Shown one piece after another: positions 24,076-35,253 of a stretch of 41,101 nucleotides of DNA (within the stretch, counting starts at the first letter, position 1; every line of letters begins with the position of its first letter). The notes under the pieces are model-generated. The model was given only the letters and a program-made list of their open reading frames with translations, was not told where the DNA came from and searched no databases. Made by a program: the position numbers and the translations under genes. Source of the stretch: Lachnospiraceae bacterium (GTDB lineage Bacteria; Bacteroidota; Bacteroidia; Bacteroidales; Muribaculaceae); assembly GCA_023663655.1 (NCBI GenBank), contig JAMPGZ010000023.1, positions 1-41,101 on the forward strand, given 5' to 3'.

Positions 24076-24139
24076 TGGCATTTTCTTGTGCGTTTGACAG
24101 GATGTTTAAGATTTTGCTCAAGAGTCAATAAAATTTTAT

Positions 24140-24147
24140 TAAATTTG
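24140..24147 (+). promoter_or_regulatory. -7 promoter element directly abutting the YhcG-type gene
   Basis: TAAATTTG is an exact TAnnTTTG match only 3 bases before the ATG at 24151. A TTTG at 24113-24116 is 23 bases upstream, slightly longer than the consensus spacing. Transcription would start at or inside the start codon, giving a leaderless message unless a later start is used. Confidence 0.45.
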
Positions 24148-24150
24148 TGT

Positions 24151-25236
24151 ATGAAAGAAATTGGCACGCAAAATCTTCCGGTTGGTTACGCTGAGTGGCG
24201 CAAAAGAATCGAAAAGCTCATTGAGAATGCAAAACTCAATGCAGCTATTCATGTGAATACCGATATGCTGCTATTATACTGGAGCATAGGCAATGACATC
24301 ATCCAAAAGAAAAAAGAACTTGGCTGGGGTGCTCAGGTCATAGAACAGTTATCGGTGGATTTGACTCGGAAGTTCCCTGAAGATAAGGGGTACTCGGTGC
24401 GAAACTTGCACTATATGAGTCGTTTCGCAGAGAATTATCCGGCATTTCCAATTCTGCAAGTGCCACTTGCAGAATTTAAGGGCTTGCCAATATCGCAAGC
24501 CGCACTTGCAGAATTGGCAGGGGGTAAGGACTATGTGGATATTCCGTTATCGACTATAAGCTGGTATCACCACATATCGATGCTGCCTAAAATTAAGGGT
24601 GATGCGGAGCGTGCGTTTTACATCCTTGAAACAACACGTAATGGATGGAGTCGTGATGTGATGATGTCAAAAATAAACGCCGGATACATGAATGCTGTAG
24701 GTAACGCCATAACTAATTTCTCACGGACATTACCGGACTATCAATCAGATCTTGCCCAGTATGCATTTAAGGATCCTTATAATTTCAGTTTTATAGGGAC
24801 AATGGCTCTGCAGCATGAGCGAGATATTGAGAAGTGTCTTGCCGAACGCATAACCGAGTTTCTTTTGGAGTTGGGATATGGCTTTGCCTATGTGGGACGA
24901 CAATACAATGTAGTAGTTGATGGTGACGATTATTATATCGATATTCTGATGTATCATCTGAAATTGCATTGTTATGTAGTCGTTGAGTTAAAGGCGGTAG
25001 AGTTTATTCCTGAATTTGTAAGTAAGCTGAATTTCTATATATCTGCTGTGGATGAATATGTGAAAGCACCTGAGGATAAACCGACGATTGGTCTCTTGCT
25101 TTGTCGTAGCAAAAGCAATAAAAAGGCGGAGTTTGCGTTGAGGGGTATAACTCAGCCGATGGGTATCGCACAGTATGAGACTGAAAAGCTGTTTAACGAT
25201 GTTGCATCAGCATTGCCTGCCATCGATGAGATTTAA
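24151..25236 (+). CDS. DUF1016/YhcG-family PDDEXK nuclease domain protein
   Basis: A 361-residue protein from the chosen start. The N-terminal DUF1016_N winged-helix part is clear (VNTDMLLLYWSIGNDI, WGAQVIEQLSVDL, YSVRNLHYMSRFAENYP), followed by a variable linker, ISWYHHISMLPKIK, and ERAFYILETTRNGWSRDVM. The C-terminal YhcG_C nuclease domain shows the PD-(D/E)xK core: D in YYIDILMYH and ELK in VVVELKAVEF. The frame is open 21 codons upstream, but 24151 matches the family start. YhcG proteins are widely scattered in accessory DNA and suspected to act on mobile or phage nucleic acid, but I know of no firm activity. An 11-base perfect inverted repeat sits in the linker coding region. It ends 10 bases before a terminator. 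Confidence 0.92.
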   Translation: MKEIGTQNLPVGYAEWRKRIEKLIENAKLNAAIHVNTDMLLLYWSIGNDIIQKKKELGWGAQVIEQLSVDLTRKFPEDKGYSVRNLHYMSRFAENYPAFPILQVPLAEFKGLPISQAALAELAGGKDYVDIPLSTISWYHHISMLPKIKGDAERAFYILETTRNGWSRDVMMSKINAGYMNAVGNAITNFSRTLPDYQSDLAQYAFKDPYNFSFIGTMALQHERDIEKCLAERITEFLLELGYGFAYVGRQYNVVVDGDDYYIDILMYHLKLHCYVVVELKAVEFIPEFVSKLNFYISAVDEYVKAPEDKPTIGLLLCRSKSNKKAEFALRGITQPMGIAQYETEKLFNDVASALPAIDEI

Positions 25237-26335: not shown

Positions 26336-26366
26336 TTTGAGATGAAAGAAATAAGACGTATTTTTG
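26336..26366 (+). promoter_or_regulatory. Near-consensus Bacteroidetes promoter driving the structured region
   Basis: TTTG at 26336-26339 and TATTTTTG at 26359-26366 are separated by 19 bases, which is the consensus TTTG-N19-TAnnTTTG arrangement of the primary sigma factor. It is one of the two best promoters in the window. Transcription should begin near 26372, almost 490 bases before the next start codon. Confidence 0.7.
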
Positions 26367-26412
26367 CAGAGCCAAAAGTAGTGAATAAACACTATTGATG
26401 GCAAATGATTTC

Positions 26413-26776
26413 ACGCCGTTACCGGCTATGCGTTCAGAGGAACAATCAATGGAGCCGGAGGATGGGTGGGTCTACTGCCGTAGGTAGGTGAATACCTAAA
26501 TGCGGCGTTATCGGCTTGCCACTTGGCTTGCCACAACATAGTAATAAAAAGCGTTATTGGCGCTTGGTTTCTGGCTTCATGAAACTTCGAACATTTCACT
26601 GCTACAAGAGACCTTGCAACGATGATGCTCATGGGTATGATTATATACCGGATTGGATGTAGTGGATCATTACATCCAGTCCGTTGCATCATACGGCGTG
26701 AGGTCTCGTTGCTCGTTTCAAGTAGCAAGGTAGTTCGAAGACCTCATGAAGTGAAGCGAGCAAAGATTGGCTTCAC
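26413..26776 (+). ncRNA. Candidate structured RNA or long structured leader (novel family?)
   Basis: At least ten helices can be drawn in about 360 bases. Domain 1: ACGCCG/CGGCGT (26413-26418/26503-26508) encloses CCGGCT/AGCCGG (26422-26427/26453-26458) with an inner GTTC/GAAC hairpin (26432-26435/26440-26443), and TAGGTA/TACCTA (26481-26486/26493-26498). Then AAGCG/CGCTT (26549-26553/26561-26565). Domain 2 is one long arm: 26575-26592/26733-26751 (16 pairs with a small internal loop), GCTAC/GTAGC (26601-26605/26722-26726), GAGACCT/AGGTCTC (26608-26614/26701-26707), ATGATGC/GCATCAT (26622-26628/26686-26692), GGTAT/ATACC (26634-26638/26645-26649) and 26650-26661/26671-26682 (one mismatch). Finally GTGAAG/CTTCAC (26751-26756/26771-26776). 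No known RNA family is recognised. It lies behind a strong promoter and 80 bases ahead of an unknown gene. Confidence 0.5.
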
Positions 26777-26856
26777 GCTCTGTGTTTTTCATCGACGCAG
26801 TTCTGTTTATAAATGTCGGTCATGGAGCCGGGCGGACAGATGGAAGCAATGGAAAA

Positions 26857-27426
26857 ATGAATGATTCTAAAAACGGATGTTTTCTATGGCTCACAGGTCT
26901 TGAACAATATCGGGATTATGGGTGGCATGAGGACGATGAGTTTATCCGGAATATTAAAGATTTTGTTCTGAGGAATGAATGTGAAGTTCATGATGCAGAG
27001 TACGGTTTGAGGGAGGCTTTTTTAGCGATAGGGCGGCATGGTGTGCCGACTTTGGTCGTATATTCTAAGGTTGTTGATATAAGAATGCTTTCGGCAATGG
27101 TAGATTTTGGAGTGAGGAGAATCATATTTCTATGTCGTCCTCAAAATATTGCCAAACATGATATACTTGATTTAGCTATTGAGCATAATATTCCGTTCAT
27201 AACCCAGCAAGTTCCACAGATTGACTTCCTGCAACAAAGCGATTTCCAGAGTCAAGTGGATTCTTCACCCTCTGCTATTATTGAATTTAAATCAGGTTGT
27301 TCCACGGGGTACGAATGGAAAAGGCATATCAAAAATACGTGTAAAAAATATATGCCTGATCTTCTTGTGGGGATTTTGGGTAATATTATCACCGGAGGAT
27401 GTGGTTATTTGAAATTCTTTGGATAA
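26857..27426 (+). CDS. Unknown 189-aa protein, alpha/beta fold likely
   Basis: No family recognised. The start at 26857 is chosen because the upstream in-frame ATG at 26767 lies inside the structured region. The pattern of alternating hydrophobic strands and helices (TLVVYSKVV, RMLSAMVDFGVRRIIFLC, HDILDLAIEHNIPFITQQ) suggests a small Rossmann-like or TOPRIM-like alpha/beta domain over residues about 45-125. A Ser/Gln-rich linker follows, and then a basic C-terminus with a short hydrophobic tail (PDLLVGILGNIITGGCGYLKFF) that could be an amphipathic or membrane-associated helix. It ends 22 bases before the BspA-like gene on the same strand, so the two are probably one transcript. Function is unknown. 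Confidence 0.6.
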   Translation: MNDSKNGCFLWLTGLEQYRDYGWHEDDEFIRNIKDFVLRNECEVHDAEYGLREAFLAIGRHGVPTLVVYSKVVDIRMLSAMVDFGVRRIIFLCRPQNIAKHDILDLAIEHNIPFITQQVPQIDFLQQSDFQSQVDSSPSAIIEFKSGCSTGYEWKRHIKNTCKKYMPDLLVGILGNIITGGCGYLKFFG

Positions 27427-27448: not shown

Positions 27449-30400
27449 ATGAAAAAAGTAAGATTTTTAATTTTGTTGCTCGCTTTATTTGCTCTGATGC
27501 CGGTTAGGCTCGCAGCAGGAACCTCTTTTTATTACAAAGGAATGAGATACGAGACTATTAGCGATATTGACCACACTGCACAAATTACTAGTGATTATGG
27601 AATGTATGAAAACATAGAAATACCATCAATTGTAAGTCGTAACAATGAAAATTATACAGTTGTTCAGATTGGGCAGAGGGCTTTTGCTAATAGTAAAATA
27701 ACAAGTGTTAAGCTGCCAGAGACAATTTTGAGTATTGGATACGAAGCATTTGCGAATTGTGGTTCATTGGAAAATGTAATTATAATGGGTGAATCGCTTT
27801 CTGAGATTGGGGGATCCGCGTTTTTGAATAATGAAAGCTTGAAAACAATCAATTTGCCAAAATCGATTACATCCTTAGGTCCCAGTGTATTTAGTGGTTG
27901 CACGAGCTTGGGAAGTGTTACGATACCTGATTCCGTCGTGTCAATAGGGCGGTATGCTTTTAGAGGTTGCACGAGCTTGGAAAGTATTAATATACCGGAA
28001 TCACTAAAAATTATAGAATATGGTACATTCCTAGGATGCACTGTGCTGAAGCATGTTGTGATCCCCGAATCTGTAACAAGTCTTTGTCTGTCAGCATTTG
28101 ATGGTTGTAGCGGATTGGAAAAAATAGAGATTCCTAAATCAGTCGTTTCAATAGGGGATTGTGCGTTTCGGTCTTGTAGCGGTTTTACGAATTTGGTGAT
28201 ACCCAATAGTGTAACTACAATTGGCACGTCAGCGTTTGAAGGGTGTGCAAGCTTGACGAGCATCACATTGCCTGAGTCTATTACTGAAATACGCAACTCT
28301 ACTTTTAAAGGGTGCTCAGACTTAACAACGATAAATATTCCCAATACGATTACAAACATCGGTGAGTCAGCATTTGAAGGGTGTACAAGCTTGACGAGCA
28401 TCACATTGCCGGAGTCTATTAGTAAAATATACAACTCTGCTTTTAAAGGGTGCTCAGACTTAACAACGATAAATATTCCCAATACGATTACAAGCATCGG
28501 TGAGTCAGCATTTCAAGATTGTGTCGGACTGACAAAATTTAAAATACCTGAATCTGCCGTGTCAATAGATCGCTATGCATTTAGAGGTTGCACGAGCTTG
28601 GAAAGTATCACAATACCTCGTTCAGTCACCTCGCTTCATTCGACATCATTCGATGGTTGTTCAAGTTTAAGTACACTTGTATTTGAAGATGGAGAATATA
28701 CTTTAAATATAGTGGGGGAGAGTGTGACAAACACTTGTCCGATTGATTCCTCATATATAGGGAGAAATATCTCGGGTAAAATCTTTTCAGACAAACTAAA
28801 AACAGTTGTAATCTCAAATTCGGTCACTTCGATTGGTAATTCTGTTTTTTCCGGTTGTTCCGGTTTGACAAATATCGAAATACCAAATTCGGTTACTTCT
28901 ATTGGTAATTCGGCATTCTACCGTTCCGGACTCACTGAAATTACAATTCCTGATTCTGTAAAGAGTTTAGGCGATTACGTATGTGACAACTGTGAGTCTC
29001 TTCGAAGTGTTATAATAGGTAACTCTGTGGAATATGTTGGCAATGGTTGCTTTGATGGGGCGTATCTTGTAAAAATAGCATATCCCGCAGGTTTGAAATT
29101 TAATTTTACGAACGATTTTCATGGAGAACGCATTGCATATCCTGCTGAAAGCTCAATCTCCGAGGATGGTTGTGTTTGGTCAGCTGACAAGTCCATTATA
29201 TATTTTGTCCATCAGACCATGGATGGAAATTTTAATATCCCGCAATCAGTTAAGAAAATAGGCCCTCATGCATTTGCCGGATGTTCAAGTTTGACAGGAA
29301 TTGAGATTCCGACATCGGTGGAGGAAATTGGTGACTATGCTTTTTCCGGATGTAACGGGCTGACAGATTTTACGATTCCCAATTCAGTAAAAGAACTTGG
29401 CGATTACTGTTTCTTTTATTGCCGCGAATTGAAAAGCCTTATAATCGGGACTGCTGTTGGTGTAAGTTCAAATTCATTCACCGGTTGTGCCGAACTTATA
29501 AAAGTCGCTTGTCCTGATTCTAAAAATTGGAATTTTCCGTCTTCCCCGAAAGCAAAAGTGATTAAATATCCTGCGGAAGGTGCTATTTTGAAAAATGGAG
29601 CCGTTTATTCTTCTGATAGCTCAACTCTATATTATGTTCACGCTACCGTTTCAGACACTTACGAAATTGAGAATTCAGTGAGAGCAGTAGGTCCGGAAGC
29701 GTTTGCTTACTGTGCCGATTTGAAATCGATTGTGATTCCGGAATCAGTTTCAGTTATTGGAAATTCTGCGTTTAAAGGATGCGACAATTTGGAAACGGTT
29801 GAAGTTGCCGACTTGAATACTTGGCTTAATATTGATTTTGGAGATGAATTGGCTAATCCGATATCTTTGAGCCATAAACTATCGGTGAATAATCAATTAT
29901 TGAGTGAACTGGTGATTCCTGACGCAATTACGCAAATTAAGGATTATGCGTTCAATGGGCTTCATAATATGGAGGTTATTGAGATTCCGGAGTCGGTAAT
30001 GAGCATTGGAGTTTATTCTTTCAGAGATTGTATTGGAACAAAAAAGGTTGTCAGTAAAGCTTTTACTCCTGCTGAATTCTATGTGTCATCATTCGAAGGT
30101 ATATATGACGTTCCACTCGAAATACCGGAAGGAACATTGGGTACGTATTTAAGCAGCAGATATAAATATTTTAGTAATATAATATGTGGAGAAAACGCTG
30201 TTGCTGCATTTGAGGATGAATTGTTTAAATATTTAGTAGATGTTAAGAATAAGGAAGCTTATATCGATTGCCTGTCAGACAATACATTAACCTCTGTTAC
30301 GATTCCCGAAAGAATGCTTTACTCCGGTATTGGAGGCGAGTTTTTTTGCAAAATAGTTGGGATATGCACTGATGCTTTTAAAAATGGCTGGATATCTAAT

Positions 30401-32317
30401 ATAAATTTGCCGAATGCGTTGCAAACAATAGGATGCGGTGCTTTTAAAAGTTCAAACATAAGGTCTATTACAATTCCGGAGTCAATATTGCGGATTGAGG
30501 GTGAGACATTTGAGAATTGCAGCAAGTTAACCGGAGTTTCGTTGCCCTCAAATATTAAATATATTGGTAAAAGTGCGTTTCGAGAATCCAATATAGGAAT
30601 AGGAATATTCAATTTCTCGGATTCGTTAGAGTACATCGATGATTATGCTTTTTATAAAACAAATTTAGAGTATTGTGACATTCCGGCATCTGTTAAATTT
30701 GTAGGGGAGGGTGCCTTCGCATCTTGTGGCAGATTAAAATCTGCCAAATTTGAGGATAGCTTTACTCCCATTACGTTGAAAGAGGATTTATTCGGTCATT
30801 TAACAGATTTATATATCGGTCGAAGTTTGTCGGAAGGGAGTCATGTAACACTGGCTGCTACTAATATTGAGTTTGGTGATTGTGTGCGGAACATATTAGG
30901 TGCTAAGTTTACAAAATGTGAACACCTTAAATTAGGCAATTCAATAGAGGCTATTGGAGAAGGCGCATTTGAGGATTGTAGGTTCTGGGATAAGATAGTT
31001 TTTCCCGGTTCTTTAACTTCTATTGGCGTGCGGGCATTTAAGGGGTCGGTTTTAGGAAGTGTCGTGCTCCCTCCTAATCTGAATTCTATTGGGGAGAGTG
31101 CGTTTGAAAGTGCGGGATTGTCTTCCGTTGCTATTGGATCAAAAGTTACGTCGATAGGAGACAAGGCATTTATTGATAATAATAATCTTAGCTCTGTTTA
31201 TATTACGGCTAAAGAGGCTCCAATGGCTCAAAATACGTCGTTCAACACTTATAAATCGCTGTATGTTACTCCCGGATGCAAGGACATTTATTACAACAAT
31301 CCGCGTTGTTGGTATCGATTCTCTACCTATGAAATGACTATAGCCAATTCTTTAACGGTTTCCGGATACAATAATGGGAATGTTAGACTGGGAGAAGTGT
31401 TAGAACTAAAAGCAAATCTTACGCCCAAAGGATCGTCATTGCCCTATGTGTTCTGGAGGTCAACCGATCCGGAATTTGCAACCGTATCGTCAGATGGAGT
31501 TGTCACCGTTCATGGTGGCGGTTCAGGCTGTTGCAAAATAATCGCCGAAACACTGTATGCTGACTGTAATGTTGTCGAAGTTTCTCTGTCAATGAATGAT
31601 GATGAAATGAATGATGATGAGTCGGATGTGCCGGCATCTGTCGACTTGGGCTTGAGTGTTAACTGGAGTGAATTCAACTATGGATCTTATTCTCCTGATG
31701 ATTATGGCGTACTCTATGGTTGGGGTGCCCCTGCCGGTTATTCAATAGGGAGTGGAGTTTATCCGAATAAAGGAGATATTGGTGGCAACGAATATGATGT
31801 ATTGTCTCAAGAATGGGGTCACGGCTACCGAATACCCACTGAGATAGAGCTTAATGAGCTTAATACCAAATGTATATGGACATCAGCATCCATCAATGGA
31901 GTGAATGGTTTCAAGGTGACAGGACCTAATGGCAACAGCATCTTTATTCCGGCTGCAGGAGTGAAGTATTCTGATGGCTCCATAGGTAGTCGTGGGGATT
32001 GTGCTTGTCTTTGGAGTTCATGGGGAGATTATGGATTTAGTGCAAGAGCGTTGCATATTAATGCTAATTCACGAGCTTTTCAATCTACCTACAAATGCAA
32101 TGGACTGTCTCTTAGAGGTGTGACTCGCGAAACCGTCACCTCTCAAAATCCCGGCTCGGGTATTTCAGATATAATGGATGATGATGAGTCTGTCGTGAGT
32201 GTGTACAATCTTAACGGACTGAAGGTATTTGAGGGAATGCTATCAGAAATGAATCTTCCGGCAGGCATCTATATAATGCGATCCAATGGCAAAACATATA
32301 AAATTGCCTTAAGGTAA
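27449..32317 (+). CDS. Giant BspA-like leucine-rich-repeat surface protein with Ig-like, FISUMP and sorting domains
   Basis: 1622 residues from the chosen start, which places the signal peptide (KKVRFLILLLALFALMPVRLAAG) at the N-terminus; the frame is open 10 codons upstream. Residues about 70-1290 are dozens of LRR_5 repeats of about 23 residues (consensus like I.IP.SVTSIG..AF.GCSSL). A bacterial Ig-like (Big_2) domain follows at about 1300-1380 (LEL.ANLTP...VFWRSTDPEFATVSSDGVVTV). A FISUMP-type domain is at about 1396-1560 (VDLGLSVNWSEFNYG, GYRIPTEIELNEL). The last about 50 residues (VVSVYNLNGLKVFEGMLSEM, LPAGIYIMRSNG) look like a type IX secretion C-terminal sorting domain. BspA proteins mediate adhesion. 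Near-identical 138-base units near 28232-28507 show recent duplication. Confidence 0.92.
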   Translation: MKKVRFLILLLALFALMPVRLAAGTSFYYKGMRYETISDIDHTAQITSDYGMYENIEIPSIVSRNNENYTVVQIGQRAFANSKITSVKLPETILSIGYEAFANCGSLENVIIMGESLSEIGGSAFLNNESLKTINLPKSITSLGPSVFSGCTSLGSVTIPDSVVSIGRYAFRGCTSLESINIPESLKIIEYGTFLGCTVLKHVVIPESVTSLCLSAFDGCSGLEKIEIPKSVVSIGDCAFRSCSGFTNLVIPNSVTTIGTSAFEGCASLTSITLPESITEIRNSTFKGCSDLTTINIPNTITNIGESAFEGCTSLTSITLPESISKIYNSAFKGCSDLTTINIPNTITSIGESAFQDCVGLTKFKIPESAVSIDRYAFRGCTSLESITIPRSVTSLHSTSFDGCSSLSTLVFEDGEYTLNIVGESVTNTCPIDSSYIGRNISGKIFSDKLKTVVISNSVTSIGNSVFSGCSGLTNIEIPNSVTSIGNSAFYRSGLTEITIPDSVKSLGDYVCDNCESLRSVIIGNSVEYVGNGCFDGAYLVKIAYPAGLKFNFTNDFHGERIAYPAESSISEDGCVWSADKSIIYFVHQTMDGNFNIPQSVKKIGPHAFAGCSSLTGIEIPTSVEEIGDYAFSGCNGLTDFTIPNSVKELGDYCFFYCRELKSLIIGTAVGVSSNSFTGCAELIKVACPDSKNWNFPSSPKAKVIKYPAEGAILKNGAVYSSDSSTLYYVHATVSDTYEIENSVRAVGPEAFAYCADLKSIVIPESVSVIGNSAFKGCDNLETVEVADLNTWLNIDFGDELANPISLSHKLSVNNQLLSELVIPDAITQIKDYAFNGLHNMEVIEIPESVMSIGVYSFRDCIGTKKVVSKAFTPAEFYVSSFEGIYDVPLEIPEGTLGTYLSSRYKYFSNIICGENAVAAFEDELFKYLVDVKNKEAYIDCLSDNTLTSVTIPERMLYSGIGGEFFCKIVGICTDAFKNGWISNINLPNALQTIGCGAFKSSNIRSITIPESILRIEGETFENCSKLTGVSLPSNIKYIGKSAFRESNIGIGIFNFSDSLEYIDDYAFYKTNLEYCDIPASVKFVGEGAFASCGRLKSAKFEDSFTPITLKEDLFGHLTDLYIGRSLSEGSHVTLAATNIEFGDCVRNILGAKFTKCEHLKLGNSIEAIGEGAFEDCRFWDKIVFPGSLTSIGVRAFKGSVLGSVVLPPNLNSIGESAFESAGLSSVAIGSKVTSIGDKAFIDNNNLSSVYITAKEAPMAQNTSFNTYKSLYVTPGCKDIYYNNPRCWYRFSTYEMTIANSLTVSGYNNGNVRLGEVLELKANLTPKGSSLPYVFWRSTDPEFATVSSDGVVTVHGGGSGCCKIIAETLYADCNVVEVSLSMNDDEMNDDESDVPASVDLGLSVNWSEFNYGSYSPDDYGVLYGWGAPAGYSIGSGVYPNKGDIGGNEYDVLSQEWGHGYRIPTEIELNELNTKCIWTSASINGVNGFKVTGPNGNSIFIPAAGVKYSDGSIGSRGDCACLWSSWGDYGFSARALHINANSRAFQSTYKCNGLSLRGVTRETVTSQNPGSGISDIMDDDESVVSVYNLNGLKVFEGMLSEMNLPAGIYIMRSNGKTYKIALR
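28232..28507 (+). repeat. Near-identical 138-base tandem duplication inside the BspA-like gene
   Basis: The segment starting near 28232 (GCGTTTGAAGGGTGTGCAAG) is repeated almost unchanged from 28370 (GCATTTGAAGGGTGTACAAG), an offset of exactly 138 bases, or two 23-residue LRR units. Differences are scattered single bases. The rest of the LRR region has diverged at nucleotide level, so this copy is young. Confidence 0.85.
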
Positions 32318-32382: not shown

Positions 32383-32520
32383 GATATCTTTTTCGCCTAT
32401 ATTTTTGTGATTTCAGCGACACGGTAATAATTTCAAATTGACATCTTGTCCGCCAAAGAAAAGTATTCCCGGTCTATTTTGACATAGTCTTGTCGTGATG
32501 CCTGACACAAGCAGAGACCC

Positions 32521-32914
32521 TTACAGCTTTGAGAGCAGTTCTGTGCCGGTCATCACGTCCATCTTGGAGAATGCGAATAGCTTTTTGCCGAGGTCTTTCA
32601 ATGATTCGGATGCTTGTATGAATTGCCGTCTCGCTCTTCAACACAGCAGACAGCATCAACACTCCTTGCTCTGTGAAAACAAAGGGATTGGAGGGGGCGA
32701 ATTTTATAGTTGTCTTGAACCGGTCACAATTTGTGACCAGTTCGTCTTTCTCGTTATTGGATAACTGAAATCTAAAGCTTTCCGGAAAGCGTTCGATATT
32801 ACGTTTGACTGCTTGATTAAACACTTTTGTGTCAACTTGATAAAGCTCAGCCAAATCCCTATCAACCATCACTTGATGTCCCCTGATAGTGAGAATGCGA
32901 TTCTCTATGGGCAT
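32521..32914 (-). pseudogene. ORF6N-domain (KilA-N-like) protein, internally deleted and frameshifted
   Basis: The ORF6N DNA-binding domain is intact for about the first 100 residues (IENRILTIRGHQVMVDRDLAEL, NQAVKRNIERFPESFRFQL, VFTEQGVLMLSAVLKSETAIH). After TSIRI the frame moves into a basic, unrelated tail (ERPRQKAIRILQDGRDDRHR) that ends at 32474. Reading the same DNA one frame over gives ASESLKDLGKKLFAFSKMD, which then ends at a TAA at 32521-32523. This is the usual C-terminal end of ORF6N proteins as I remember it. The middle section normally between these parts is missing, so an internal deletion probably fused the two ends out of frame. ORF6N proteins are typical of phage and accessory DNA. 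Confidence 0.72.
32722..32738. repeat. 17-base perfect palindrome, copy 1 (inside ORF6N gene)
   Basis: GGTCACAATTTGTGACC is fully palindromic about a central T. It encodes the LVTNCDRF segment of the ORF6N domain on the minus strand. A second copy lies 204 bases away at 32926-32942, just upstream of the same gene's ATG. Confidence 0.6.
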
Positions 32915-34323: not shown

Positions 34324-35253
34324 TCAGTTTCCGGTGGCACTACGGTGATTGTTGCGCGGATGGTGTTGCAGGATTTCATTCCGCAATGCGTGGCGGTCGA
34401 TGTGCAGATATATCTCGGTAGTGGCTATTGATTCATGCCCGAGCATCTGCTGTATGGCGCGCAGGTTGGCGCCGCCTTCAAGCAGGTGTGATGCGAATGA
34501 ATGACGCAGAGAGTGGGGGCTGATGCTCTTGCGTATGCCCGCCAGCTCACACAGGTCCTTTATGATATAGAATATCATCACGCGTGACAACCTTCTGCCG
34601 CGGCGGTTGAGAAACAATATGTTCTCCTCGCCCGGCTTTATGTCGAGCTTTGAACGCTCGGGGAGATAAGCGCGGATTTCTTCTACCGACACATCTGACA
34701 TTGGCACCATTCGCTCTTTGCTCCCTTTTCCTTTCACTATCACATATTGCTCGTCGAGAAACACATGGGCGAGGTCGAGATTCACCAGCTCGCTCACTCG
34801 GAGCCCGCATCCGTAGAGCGTCTCTATAATGGCTCGGTTGCGCTGACCCTCAGGTGCCGACATATCGATGCATGATATCATCTCGTCGATTTCGTCGATT
34901 GAAAGCACGTCGGGCAGATGCCGTCCCAGGCGTGGCGCCTGAAGCAGCAATGTGGGATTCTCCTCTACATACCCCTCCATCTTGAGAAACTTGAAGAAGG
35001 ATTTCAGCCCCGAGATTATCCGGGCTTGTGTTGTCGGGGCTATGCCACAGTCATGAAGCCCGGCGAGAAATGCATGTAGCACCTCCGGTGTTGTGTCGCG
35101 CAGAGTCAGCGATTCCACTTCCAGAAATCGCAGGAACTTCTTCACATCCTCGTTATATGATGTGCGAGTATTGTCAGCAAGCCCTTTTTCCAGGAGCAGA
35201 TAGGCGTGATACGAATCGAGTGCCCTTGAAATATCCTCTATGCTACGCGCCAT
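34324..35253 (-). CDS. xerD: Site-specific tyrosine recombinase XerD
   Basis: A 309-residue recombinase of normal XerC/D length. The N-terminal SAM-like core-binding domain (about 8-95) is followed by the catalytic domain with all six active-site residues visible: Arg152 (GCGLRVSEL), Lys176 (VKGKGSKER), His247 and Arg250 (SPHSLRHSFA), His273 (MLGHESI) and Tyr282 (TTEIYLHI). With its partner it resolves chromosome dimers at dif. It is the third gene of an apparent operon with a YfhO protein and a methyltransferase, 15 bases after the latter. The gene is intact and housekeeping-like; it is not the source of the integrase stump at 33061. XerD rather than XerC is assigned by overall similarity. 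Confidence 0.92.
   Translation of the reverse strand: MARSIEDISRALDSYHAYLLLEKGLADNTRTSYNEDVKKFLRFLEVESLTLRDTTPEVLHAFLAGLHDCGIAPTTQARIISGLKSFFKFLKMEGYVEENPTLLLQAPRLGRHLPDVLSIDEIDEMISCIDMSAPEGQRNRAIIETLYGCGLRVSELVNLDLAHVFLDEQYVIVKGKGSKERMVPMSDVSVEEIRAYLPERSKLDIKPGEENILFLNRRGRRLSRVMIFYIIKDLCELAGIRKSISPHSLRHSFASHLLEGGANLRAIQQMLGHESIATTEIYLHIDRHALRNEILQHHPRNNHRSATGN

Follow-up and report, generated by a model that had tools for sequence, protein, structure and literature searches.

The choice of which surface and accessory operons are expressed in Bacteroidota bears on gut colonisation, and sigma/anti-sigma systems form one known layer of its control. Structured elements of the JUMPstart/ops and EAR type lie early in surface and polysaccharide operons, and JUMPstart/ops, put and EAR are processive antitermination elements. 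Invertible promoters and UpxY/UpxZ are further layers of control (PMC12632263), and in the upxY-controlled capsule leaders of Bacteroides, UpxY prevents premature termination in the untranslated region (PMC9409006). A motif table that names JUMPstart and epsC accompanies a description of structured RNAs of the Bacteroidota, including Bacteroidales-1 (RF01693), Bacteroides-1 (RF01694), Bacteroid-trp (RF01692), 6S-flavo (RF01685) and Flavo-1 (RF01705) (PMC2864571). Fremin and Bhatt (2021) reported structured RNA candidates derived from metagenomes, some mostly in Bacteroidetes and some with predicted terminators (PMC8040213), and long 5' UTRs have been described on mRNAs of B. thetaiotaomicron, a known riboswitch being predicted in about 2% of these (PMC7366714).

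An uncatalogued large leader RNA in front of many such operons would add a further layer. Here we describe a structured RNA family that occurs across the Bacteroidota and has no entry in the public RNA catalogue. One copy, without an Rfam match, occupies approximately 26407-26830 of a 41,101-nt stretch of a Muribaculaceae genome (GCA_023663655.1, contig JAMPGZ010000023.1; hereafter the window), in which the promoter, the RNA and the two genes behind it all lie on the + strand. That the RNA is a structured leader is held much more firmly than the reading of its function argued below, namely that it is probably a cis-acting attenuator, riboswitch-like and of the terminator/antiterminator type, that controls exported and accessory operons.

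Results

The original prediction for this locus described a consensus promoter followed by highly structured, apparently non-coding sequence up to 26776. The Bacteroidota-type promoter (TTTG-N19-TAnnTTTG, 26336-26366) is indeed present in the sequence, as TTTG at 26336-26339, 19 nt, and then TATTTTTG at 26359-26366. The region 26336-26776 is also as structured as proposed, with a fold energy of -172.9 kcal/mol versus -119.4 ± 6.0 kcal/mol in 100 dinucleotide shuffles (z -9.0). In the same test z was -7.4 for the opposite strand, as expected from the palindromic nature of the region. Likewise, the absence of a convincing coding signal was confirmed in 148 homologous cores, in which no frame through the stems is conserved, since core lengths are spread evenly over 0, 1 and 2 modulo 3 (49, 49 and 50 cores); some stop-free frame among the six was found in 35 of them. 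The element extends past the proposed end at 26776, as it includes a T-tract at 26785-26789 and another pairing strand at 26823-26830, and the 5' domain behind the promoter takes part in its pairing.

A covariance model (R1) matches the RNA core at 26547-26783 (cmsearch, 212.8 bits, with the window sequence among the model's own). The operon that follows begins with a gene for a 189-aa protein (26857-27426) for which Pfam and NCBIfam matches are absent, and continues with a BspA-type leucine-rich-repeat surface protein (27449-32317; Pfam LRR_5, E 9.7e-226, frame read from 27419). Neighbouring genes encode a YhcG-type PDDEXK nuclease (24088-25236), an ORF6N-domain protein (32474-32914) and a tyrosine recombinase (34324-35253). 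By eye, the 189-aa protein resembles a 195-aa protein at another locus (L005, 844-1428, - strand), with a common N-terminal motif and a hydrophobic C-terminus, and both genes are situated between the RNA and a BspA-like gene; such first genes may encode operon-specific regulators or partners.

In line with the original prediction, in which no known RNA family was recognised, neither the window nor any of 20 diverse homologous loci matched an Rfam 15 family at the gathering score. Permissive scans returned sub-threshold matches only, to a snoRNA at the window and, in loci of the compact form described below, to miRNA families and a viral 5' UTR. ARAGORN found 0 genes in the window, a repeat search yielded nothing useful, and a plasmid search with the window sequence itself gave 0 matches. 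A group I or group II intron was rejected, the Rfam intron models being unmatched in the window and the 20 diverse loci. A retron msr-msd RNA was also rejected, as reverse transcriptase was absent among the Pfam matches of 20 window proteins, flanking genes included; it was absent, too, in the best 25 of the 76 Pfam families matched by 118 first genes downstream of homologues. No description of the RNA family was recognised in a literature search that left aside most subscription papers, preprints and supplements.

With 26336-26860 as the query, blastn matched 41 of 297 genomes of the taxonomic family. Within the genus, a literal blastn search matched 3 of 14 genomes, the window's own genome being counted in both figures. 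The genus search under-reports the RNA family, because three genus genomes that were blastn-negative (G003-G005) carry 2, 3 and 11 copies by model. The first alignment set drew on 22 of the 41 genomes with a blastn match and took one locus from each, and alignment A2 comprised 21 cores, with the near-duplicates L007 and L021 omitted. Across the order, R1 matched at least 66 of 393 genomes (own genome counted), which is a lower bound since up to five candidates per genome were scored under strict filters. In the window's own genome R1 matched 13 places, one of them partial, and a weaker match to a third model, R3, was seen at an additional place (G000:C13:1455-1659, - strand). Model R2, which is more diverse, detected 229 copies across 20 genomes, with 2-25 in each; 17 of these genomes had been chosen for having matches and three were the genus mates without a blastn match. 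A pattern scan of named genomes returned at least 119 stretches, and the carriers among the matches listed include Segatella copri, Bacteroides caecigallinarum and Prevotella ihumii as well as Parabacteroides, Phocaeicola, Alistipes and Duncaniella assemblies. One row among the matches listed was labelled Firmicutes, perhaps a misbinned contig.

Across the phylum, R2 matched 15 of 395 genomes. Model R3, which represents a compact form of ~170 nt, was built from 13 sequences (compact copies from ten of those 15 genomes and three copies from the order) and matched 67 of 395 genomes, 22 of them outside the class, with ten of the 13 building sequences coming from genomes among the 67. Its alignment contains 63 both-side changes versus 29.2 ± 4.0 after shuffling (0/500). 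Pattern matches were also seen on two viral contigs (L286 and L287, one each), together with a partial match in phage record MT839469.1 (1483-1576). Two copies in the window's genome form a near-identical pair (L081, C19:28914-29167, and L082, C42:101046-101299), with the same core and nearly equal flanks up to the start codon but different first genes, so that the leader appears to have been duplicated recently as a module.

Compensatory changes, whose absence from homologues would have spoken against the predicted structured RNA, were found. A hand-written structure applied to the 21 cores of A2 gave 59 both-side-change cells versus 19.3 ± 3.5 after shuffling (0/500). Larger comparisons started from 150 cmsearch matches, of which 148 remained after omission of the partial copies L029 and L086, and 145 after removal of three more that contained N or were identical. 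These 145 copies were aligned by sequence only (MAFFT) and assessed under a tree-based null, in which 60 simulations redistributed the substitutions of each column randomly over the tree. Ten pairs reached E<0.05, all within two helices, P1v (26576-26581 with 26745-26750) and P2 (26585-26590 with 26735-26740), with standard pairs in 90-99%; helices other than P1v and P2 gave 0 pairs at E<0.05 in the 145 copies. Because loop lengths differ, these other helices were tested by a cis/trans comparison, in which the fit between strands of one copy is set against that between strands from different copies. Across 58 clusters (<70% identity), each of 13 proposed helices gave 0/1000, with z ranging from 3.4 to 30.3. 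A blind scan of 741 segment pairs had a median z of about 0, and 34 of the 37 pairs above z 5 are named helices. The three unassigned pairs are 26555/26757 (z 6.3), 26550/26763 (z 5.3) and 26706/26727 (z 6.1). Taken together, these data indicate an RNA secondary structure conserved by compensatory change.

At the 5' side of the core, P1 pairs 26550-26557 with 26622-26629 (z 9.5, 0/1000) and overlaps a local hairpin, H1 (26550-26553 with 26561-26564; z 3.4, 0/1000). Helix Pa joins 26566-26572 to 26607-26613 (z 10.2), with both-side changes in 12 of 13 aligned pairs. P1v (26576-26582 with 26744-26750; six pairs at E 0-0.033, z 30.3) is highly variable in sequence and maintained in pairing. The small hairpin Pb (26581-26584 with 26594-26597; z 5.8) contains in its loop the 5' strand of P2 (26585-26591), which makes a loop-to-distant pairing with 26734-26740 (four pairs at E 0-0.033), and P3, which overlaps Pa in many homologues, pairs 26600-26605 with 26722-26727 (z 27.0). 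In an 84-sequence alignment (A5), the proportion of cells paired was 94.9% for P1v, 98.4% for P2 and 41.0% for P3, whose columns are misaligned there. Between these strands lies an arm formed by P4 (26616-26621 with 26707-26712; z 7.2), by P5a and P5b (5' strands within 26628-26639, pairing with 26697-26702 and 26690-26694; z 5.6 and 8.7) and by the terminal hairpin P6 (26640-26689), which varies in length and sequence in alignments A2 and A5 and whose inner segments reached z 9.7 in the blind scan. The originally proposed arm of stacked stems (26575-26751) is real, with covariation of its pairs in homologues.

The arrangement of the helices into two domains fared less well, as it is one of several mutually exclusive folds. 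The 3' strand of the arm (26696-26719) is common to P0, P5a, P9, P4 and P8. P8 pairs 26709-26719 with 26753-26763 (z 12.3) and P9 pairs 26696-26702 with 26772-26778 (z 7.3); taken together, 95.1% of their cells are paired, and both-side changes number 96 versus 26.1 ± 4.3 after shuffling (0/500). Since P8/P9 and P4/P5a use the same arm strand, they are mutually exclusive. A second shared strand, 26768-26778, is used by P7, P9 and P10. P7 is a hairpin (26751-26757 with 26770-26776; z 7.9) that we propose as the terminator stem, with both-side changes in six of its seven pairs in the 84-sequence alignment; it is paired in 76.9% of cells versus 97.9% for P9. Upstream of the core, the P0 strand in the 5' domain (26407-26416, GATTTCACGC) complements 26696-26705 of the arm. 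When the arm was compared with the stretch 10-130 nt upstream of the core, the cis/trans test gave z 6.7 (0/1000, 64 clusters) versus z 1.2 and -0.8 for control stretches, the window's own best match falling slightly outside the tested stretch, at -140.

The proposed terminator stem is followed by a T-tract. At least five T in 9 nt were found in 142 of 145 homologues, compared with control windows downstream (78 of 737) and upstream (602 of 4141), although the nine-base windows of the controls were fixed and that of the homologues was placed more freely, by motif search. The same free placement found a T-rich end in 30 of 30 compact copies. The window's own T-tract (26785-26789, GCTCTGTGTTTTT) is one of the weaker, which counts against an attenuator. 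In eight of the 30 compact copies the 5' strand of P5, the arm and the 3' strand of P7 read GCGTCC/GGACGC/GCGTCC; among the other 22, the arm contains CGTG in 18, and CACG is present in the P7 strand in 12 of these 18. The strand trio was the best-fitting one picked by script, and two copies (L309 and L328) yielded no sensible trio. The joint change of three strands, which may go back to a single event in the eight copies, is the trace expected from mutually exclusive P5 and P9. In these eight and one further compact copy (L335), the folded P7 has 9-13 bp, a GGAA/GAAA-type loop and an energy of -12.6 to -14.8 kcal/mol, and stands before the T-tract. Thus, in its predicted anatomy the P7 of the compact lineage is a textbook intrinsic terminator, and P8/P9, together with the three-strand change, point to a helix exclusive with it.

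For the window, little energy separates the two folds (-123.8 and -116.8 kcal/mol), which speaks for an attenuator. RNAalifold on A2 mixed competing helices. RNAfold, in which pseudoknots are impossible, did not favour P8/P9 at any of eight lengths of a window transcript extended stepwise. A pattern scan for terminators found two terminator-like sites in the stretch versus 0.5 ± 0.8 in shuffles, and flagged a second hairpin at 26780-26800 (CTGTGT...ACGCAG followed by TTCTGTTTAT) rather than P7, which has a loop longer than the 8 that the scan allows.

Beyond the T-tract, the P10 strand (26823-26830, TGGAGCCG) pairs with 26768-26775. The cis/trans test gave z 9.0 (0/2000, 68 clusters) versus z -0.05 for a control 70 nt further on. 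A strong P10 match was present in 39 of the 68 clusters and not in the other 29; a start codon could be assigned in 32 of the 39, at a median of 25.5 nt from the P10 end, and in 22 of these 32 loci the strand ends 5-40 nt before it. Both the covariation of P10 and this position would suit a leader that acts mainly on translation or mRNA stability, with P10 near the start codon as its output and the T-tract as a structural part. We consider this quite improbable, given the near-universal T-tract and the lineage in which P7 has the form of a textbook terminator.

The genomic setting of the homologues was consistent with a 5' leader on the same strand as, and a short distance from, the gene that follows. 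Of 145 homologues, 127 have the -7 box TAnnTTTG no more than 300 nt before the core (116 of the 127 no more than 140 nt), whereas it occurred in 14 of 138 at -650 to -350 and, when the antisense strand was scanned, in 48 of 145. At 131 of 144 loci the nearest downstream ORF (≥60 aa) was on the same strand, compared with 81 of 141 for the upstream ORF, and the first same-strand start codon lay 40-79 nt past the model end at 83 of 142 loci. For compact copies, the corresponding counts were 29 of 30 downstream and 12 of 29 upstream, with a median distance of 108 nt. These constraints on orientation and spacing, and the covariation of P10 past the T-tract, speak against an independent, trans-acting small RNA that stops at a terminator of its own and whose place ahead of genes is incidental; such an RNA would have the promoter and the terminator-like end seen here, and terminated leaders would in any case pile up as small RNA, yet we regard this as very unlikely.

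The genes behind the RNA are diverse. Of 119 first genes, 118 were scanned (L030 being left out), and the commonest Pfam match, LRR_5, was found in six of them. The set includes helicases and phospholipase-D-like proteins that resemble anti-phage proteins, protein kinases and, by eye, lipoprotein-like genes. By a simple hydrophobicity rule, a signal-like N-terminus was present in 49 of 107 first genes and 52 of 76 second genes, compared with 22 of 134 upstream genes. The controlled genes appear to have no pathway in common from which a ligand could be named.

Several recurrent neighbours were also seen. Eleven loci (L015, L037, L039, L043, L048, L087, L088, L092, L106, L153 and L159) open with a small similar protein, mostly with HIG..IK..L..QGRSVTWF, of 69-87 aa and helix-turn-helix-like by eye, which is the most frequent recurring first gene seen. 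Compact copies at L323, L325, L327, L329, L330 and L332 lie 214-573 nt upstream of genes with N-termini that by eye resemble those of SusC-type TonB receptors, hinting at polysaccharide-utilisation operons. On a Bacteroides ovatus plasmid (NZ_CP081918.1; L298, L300, L301 and L305), a compact copy has helix-turn-helix and primase genes on one side and a dihydrofolate-reductase-family gene on the other; the latter gene stands behind compact copies both on the plasmid and on apparently integrative elements. At L300, a strand behind the T-tract looks complementary to P2 by eye.

Three of the 118 first genes encode UpxY-like NusG paralogues. This, the leader position before exported-protein and accessory genes, and the ease with which a gene-independent action would accommodate such diverse genes are what one might expect of a processive antitermination or Rho-blocking RNA, which would bind RNA polymerase or a NusG-type factor and allow read-through of long, horizontally acquired operons. 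A check of upxY loci with R2 and R3, however, found the RNA at 0 of the 30 loci covered, out of 106 upxY matches, and UpxY, the capsule antiterminator, was accordingly rejected as the partner of the RNA in general. Short genes, too, stand behind compact copies, and the terminator and its exclusive partner strands would go unexplained by such action alone, so that we hold this mode of action to be unlikely.

The original prediction had left a choice between a new structured RNA, a long leader of the 189-aa/BspA operon and a DNA element folding as a single strand. The first two apply together. The third, whether as a single-stranded recombination site such as attC or as a MITE, could draw on a structure maintained while its sequence drifts, on the many copies and their accessory genes, on the near-identical copy pair within one genome and on the location of some copies on plasmids and apparently integrative elements. 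The covarying helices, however, contain many G-U pairs when read on the + strand, as expected of RNA rather than of single-stranded DNA, and the close upstream promoter, the T-tract and the orientation towards genes are those of a transcribed element; a DNA-level role is therefore extremely improbable.

Discussion

The comparison of homologous sequences shows covariation of the RNA type, the position as a leader, an anatomy like that of a terminator, and alternative helices that exclude one another. From these we infer that termination would occur and would be regulated, with one fold acting as the ON state and a common signal (a ligand, a protein or a polymerase-bound factor) acting on all copies. 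In the attenuator that we favour, transcription would begin at the promoter near 26366, and the first part to form would be a heavily pseudoknotted domain, in which P1v, P2 and P3 join 5' loop strands to 3' strands, together with the P4-P6 arm. The strand 26770-26778 could then pair with the strand preceding it, giving the P7 hairpin and, with the T-tract, an intrinsic terminator. Alternatively, it could pair with the arm (26696-26719) through P8/P9, by which P7 would be dismantled and P4/P5 opened. A third option, after the polymerase has passed, would be pairing with the strand near the start codon (P10), and P0 near the 5' end would be a further competitor for the arm. Because the choice between P7 and P8/P9 would hinge on the P4/P5 arm, a signal that stabilises or destabilises this arm would set the share of transcripts that reach the operon, here the 189-aa gene and that for the BspA-like protein.

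Several observations keep this attenuator at probable rather than higher. P9 also ends directly at the T-tract and could itself be a terminator stem, so that either fold may be the ON state, and it is kept better than P7, the reverse of what would be expected if P7 alone worked. P10, lying beyond the T-tract, cannot affect termination there, and the RNA may therefore have an additional or other role. The RNAfold result, the window's weak T-tract, the terminator-like hairpin at 26780-26800, the three unassigned segment pairs and the diversity of the genes weigh in the same direction.

More tentatively, and with somewhat more doubt than belief, the family could be a phylum-wide switch class rather than a one-pathway one, in which many copies within one genome would respond to one common signal and jointly control the expression of genes that are exported or accessory, namely those for BspA proteins, lipoproteins and SusC-like receptors together with polysaccharide and defence-like genes. 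The control would pass along a relay of mutually exclusive strands, from P0, just after the transcription start, to the terminator P7/P9 and on to P10 at the start codon. Since the expression platform itself covaries, the family offers an unusually deep natural alignment for the study of RNA strand exchange.

The RNA family can be compared with several described systems. Like JUMPstart/ops and EAR, it is a structured element early in surface operons; unlike them, it lacks an Rfam match and includes a terminator-like hairpin. With the upxY-controlled capsule leaders it shares a place in surface operons of Bacteroidales, and premature termination, known in those leaders, has a predicted counterpart here in the terminator-like anatomy; it differs in its absence from the upxY loci checked and in the rarity of UpxY-like first genes. 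RF01693, RF01694, RF01692, RF01685 and RF01705 are likewise structured Bacteroidota RNAs, and were unmatched at the gathering score in the window and the 20 loci. Those Bacteroidetes candidates of Fremin and Bhatt for which a length is stated (40-132 bp) are set apart by length only, and a fragment of the RNA family could be hidden in the supplementary list of that study (PMC8040213). The closest likeness in anatomy is to riboswitch and attenuator leaders, with which the family has in common a 5' leader, a compact pseudoknotted domain, a terminator-like hairpin with an exclusive partner and a start codon soon after. It departs from them in being present in 2-25 copies per genome (20 genomes, 17 chosen for having matches), in preceding genes without a common pathway, and in having competing partners on both sides (P0, P9 and P10); such copy number, gene-independence and strand relay are unusual for an RNA of this kind.
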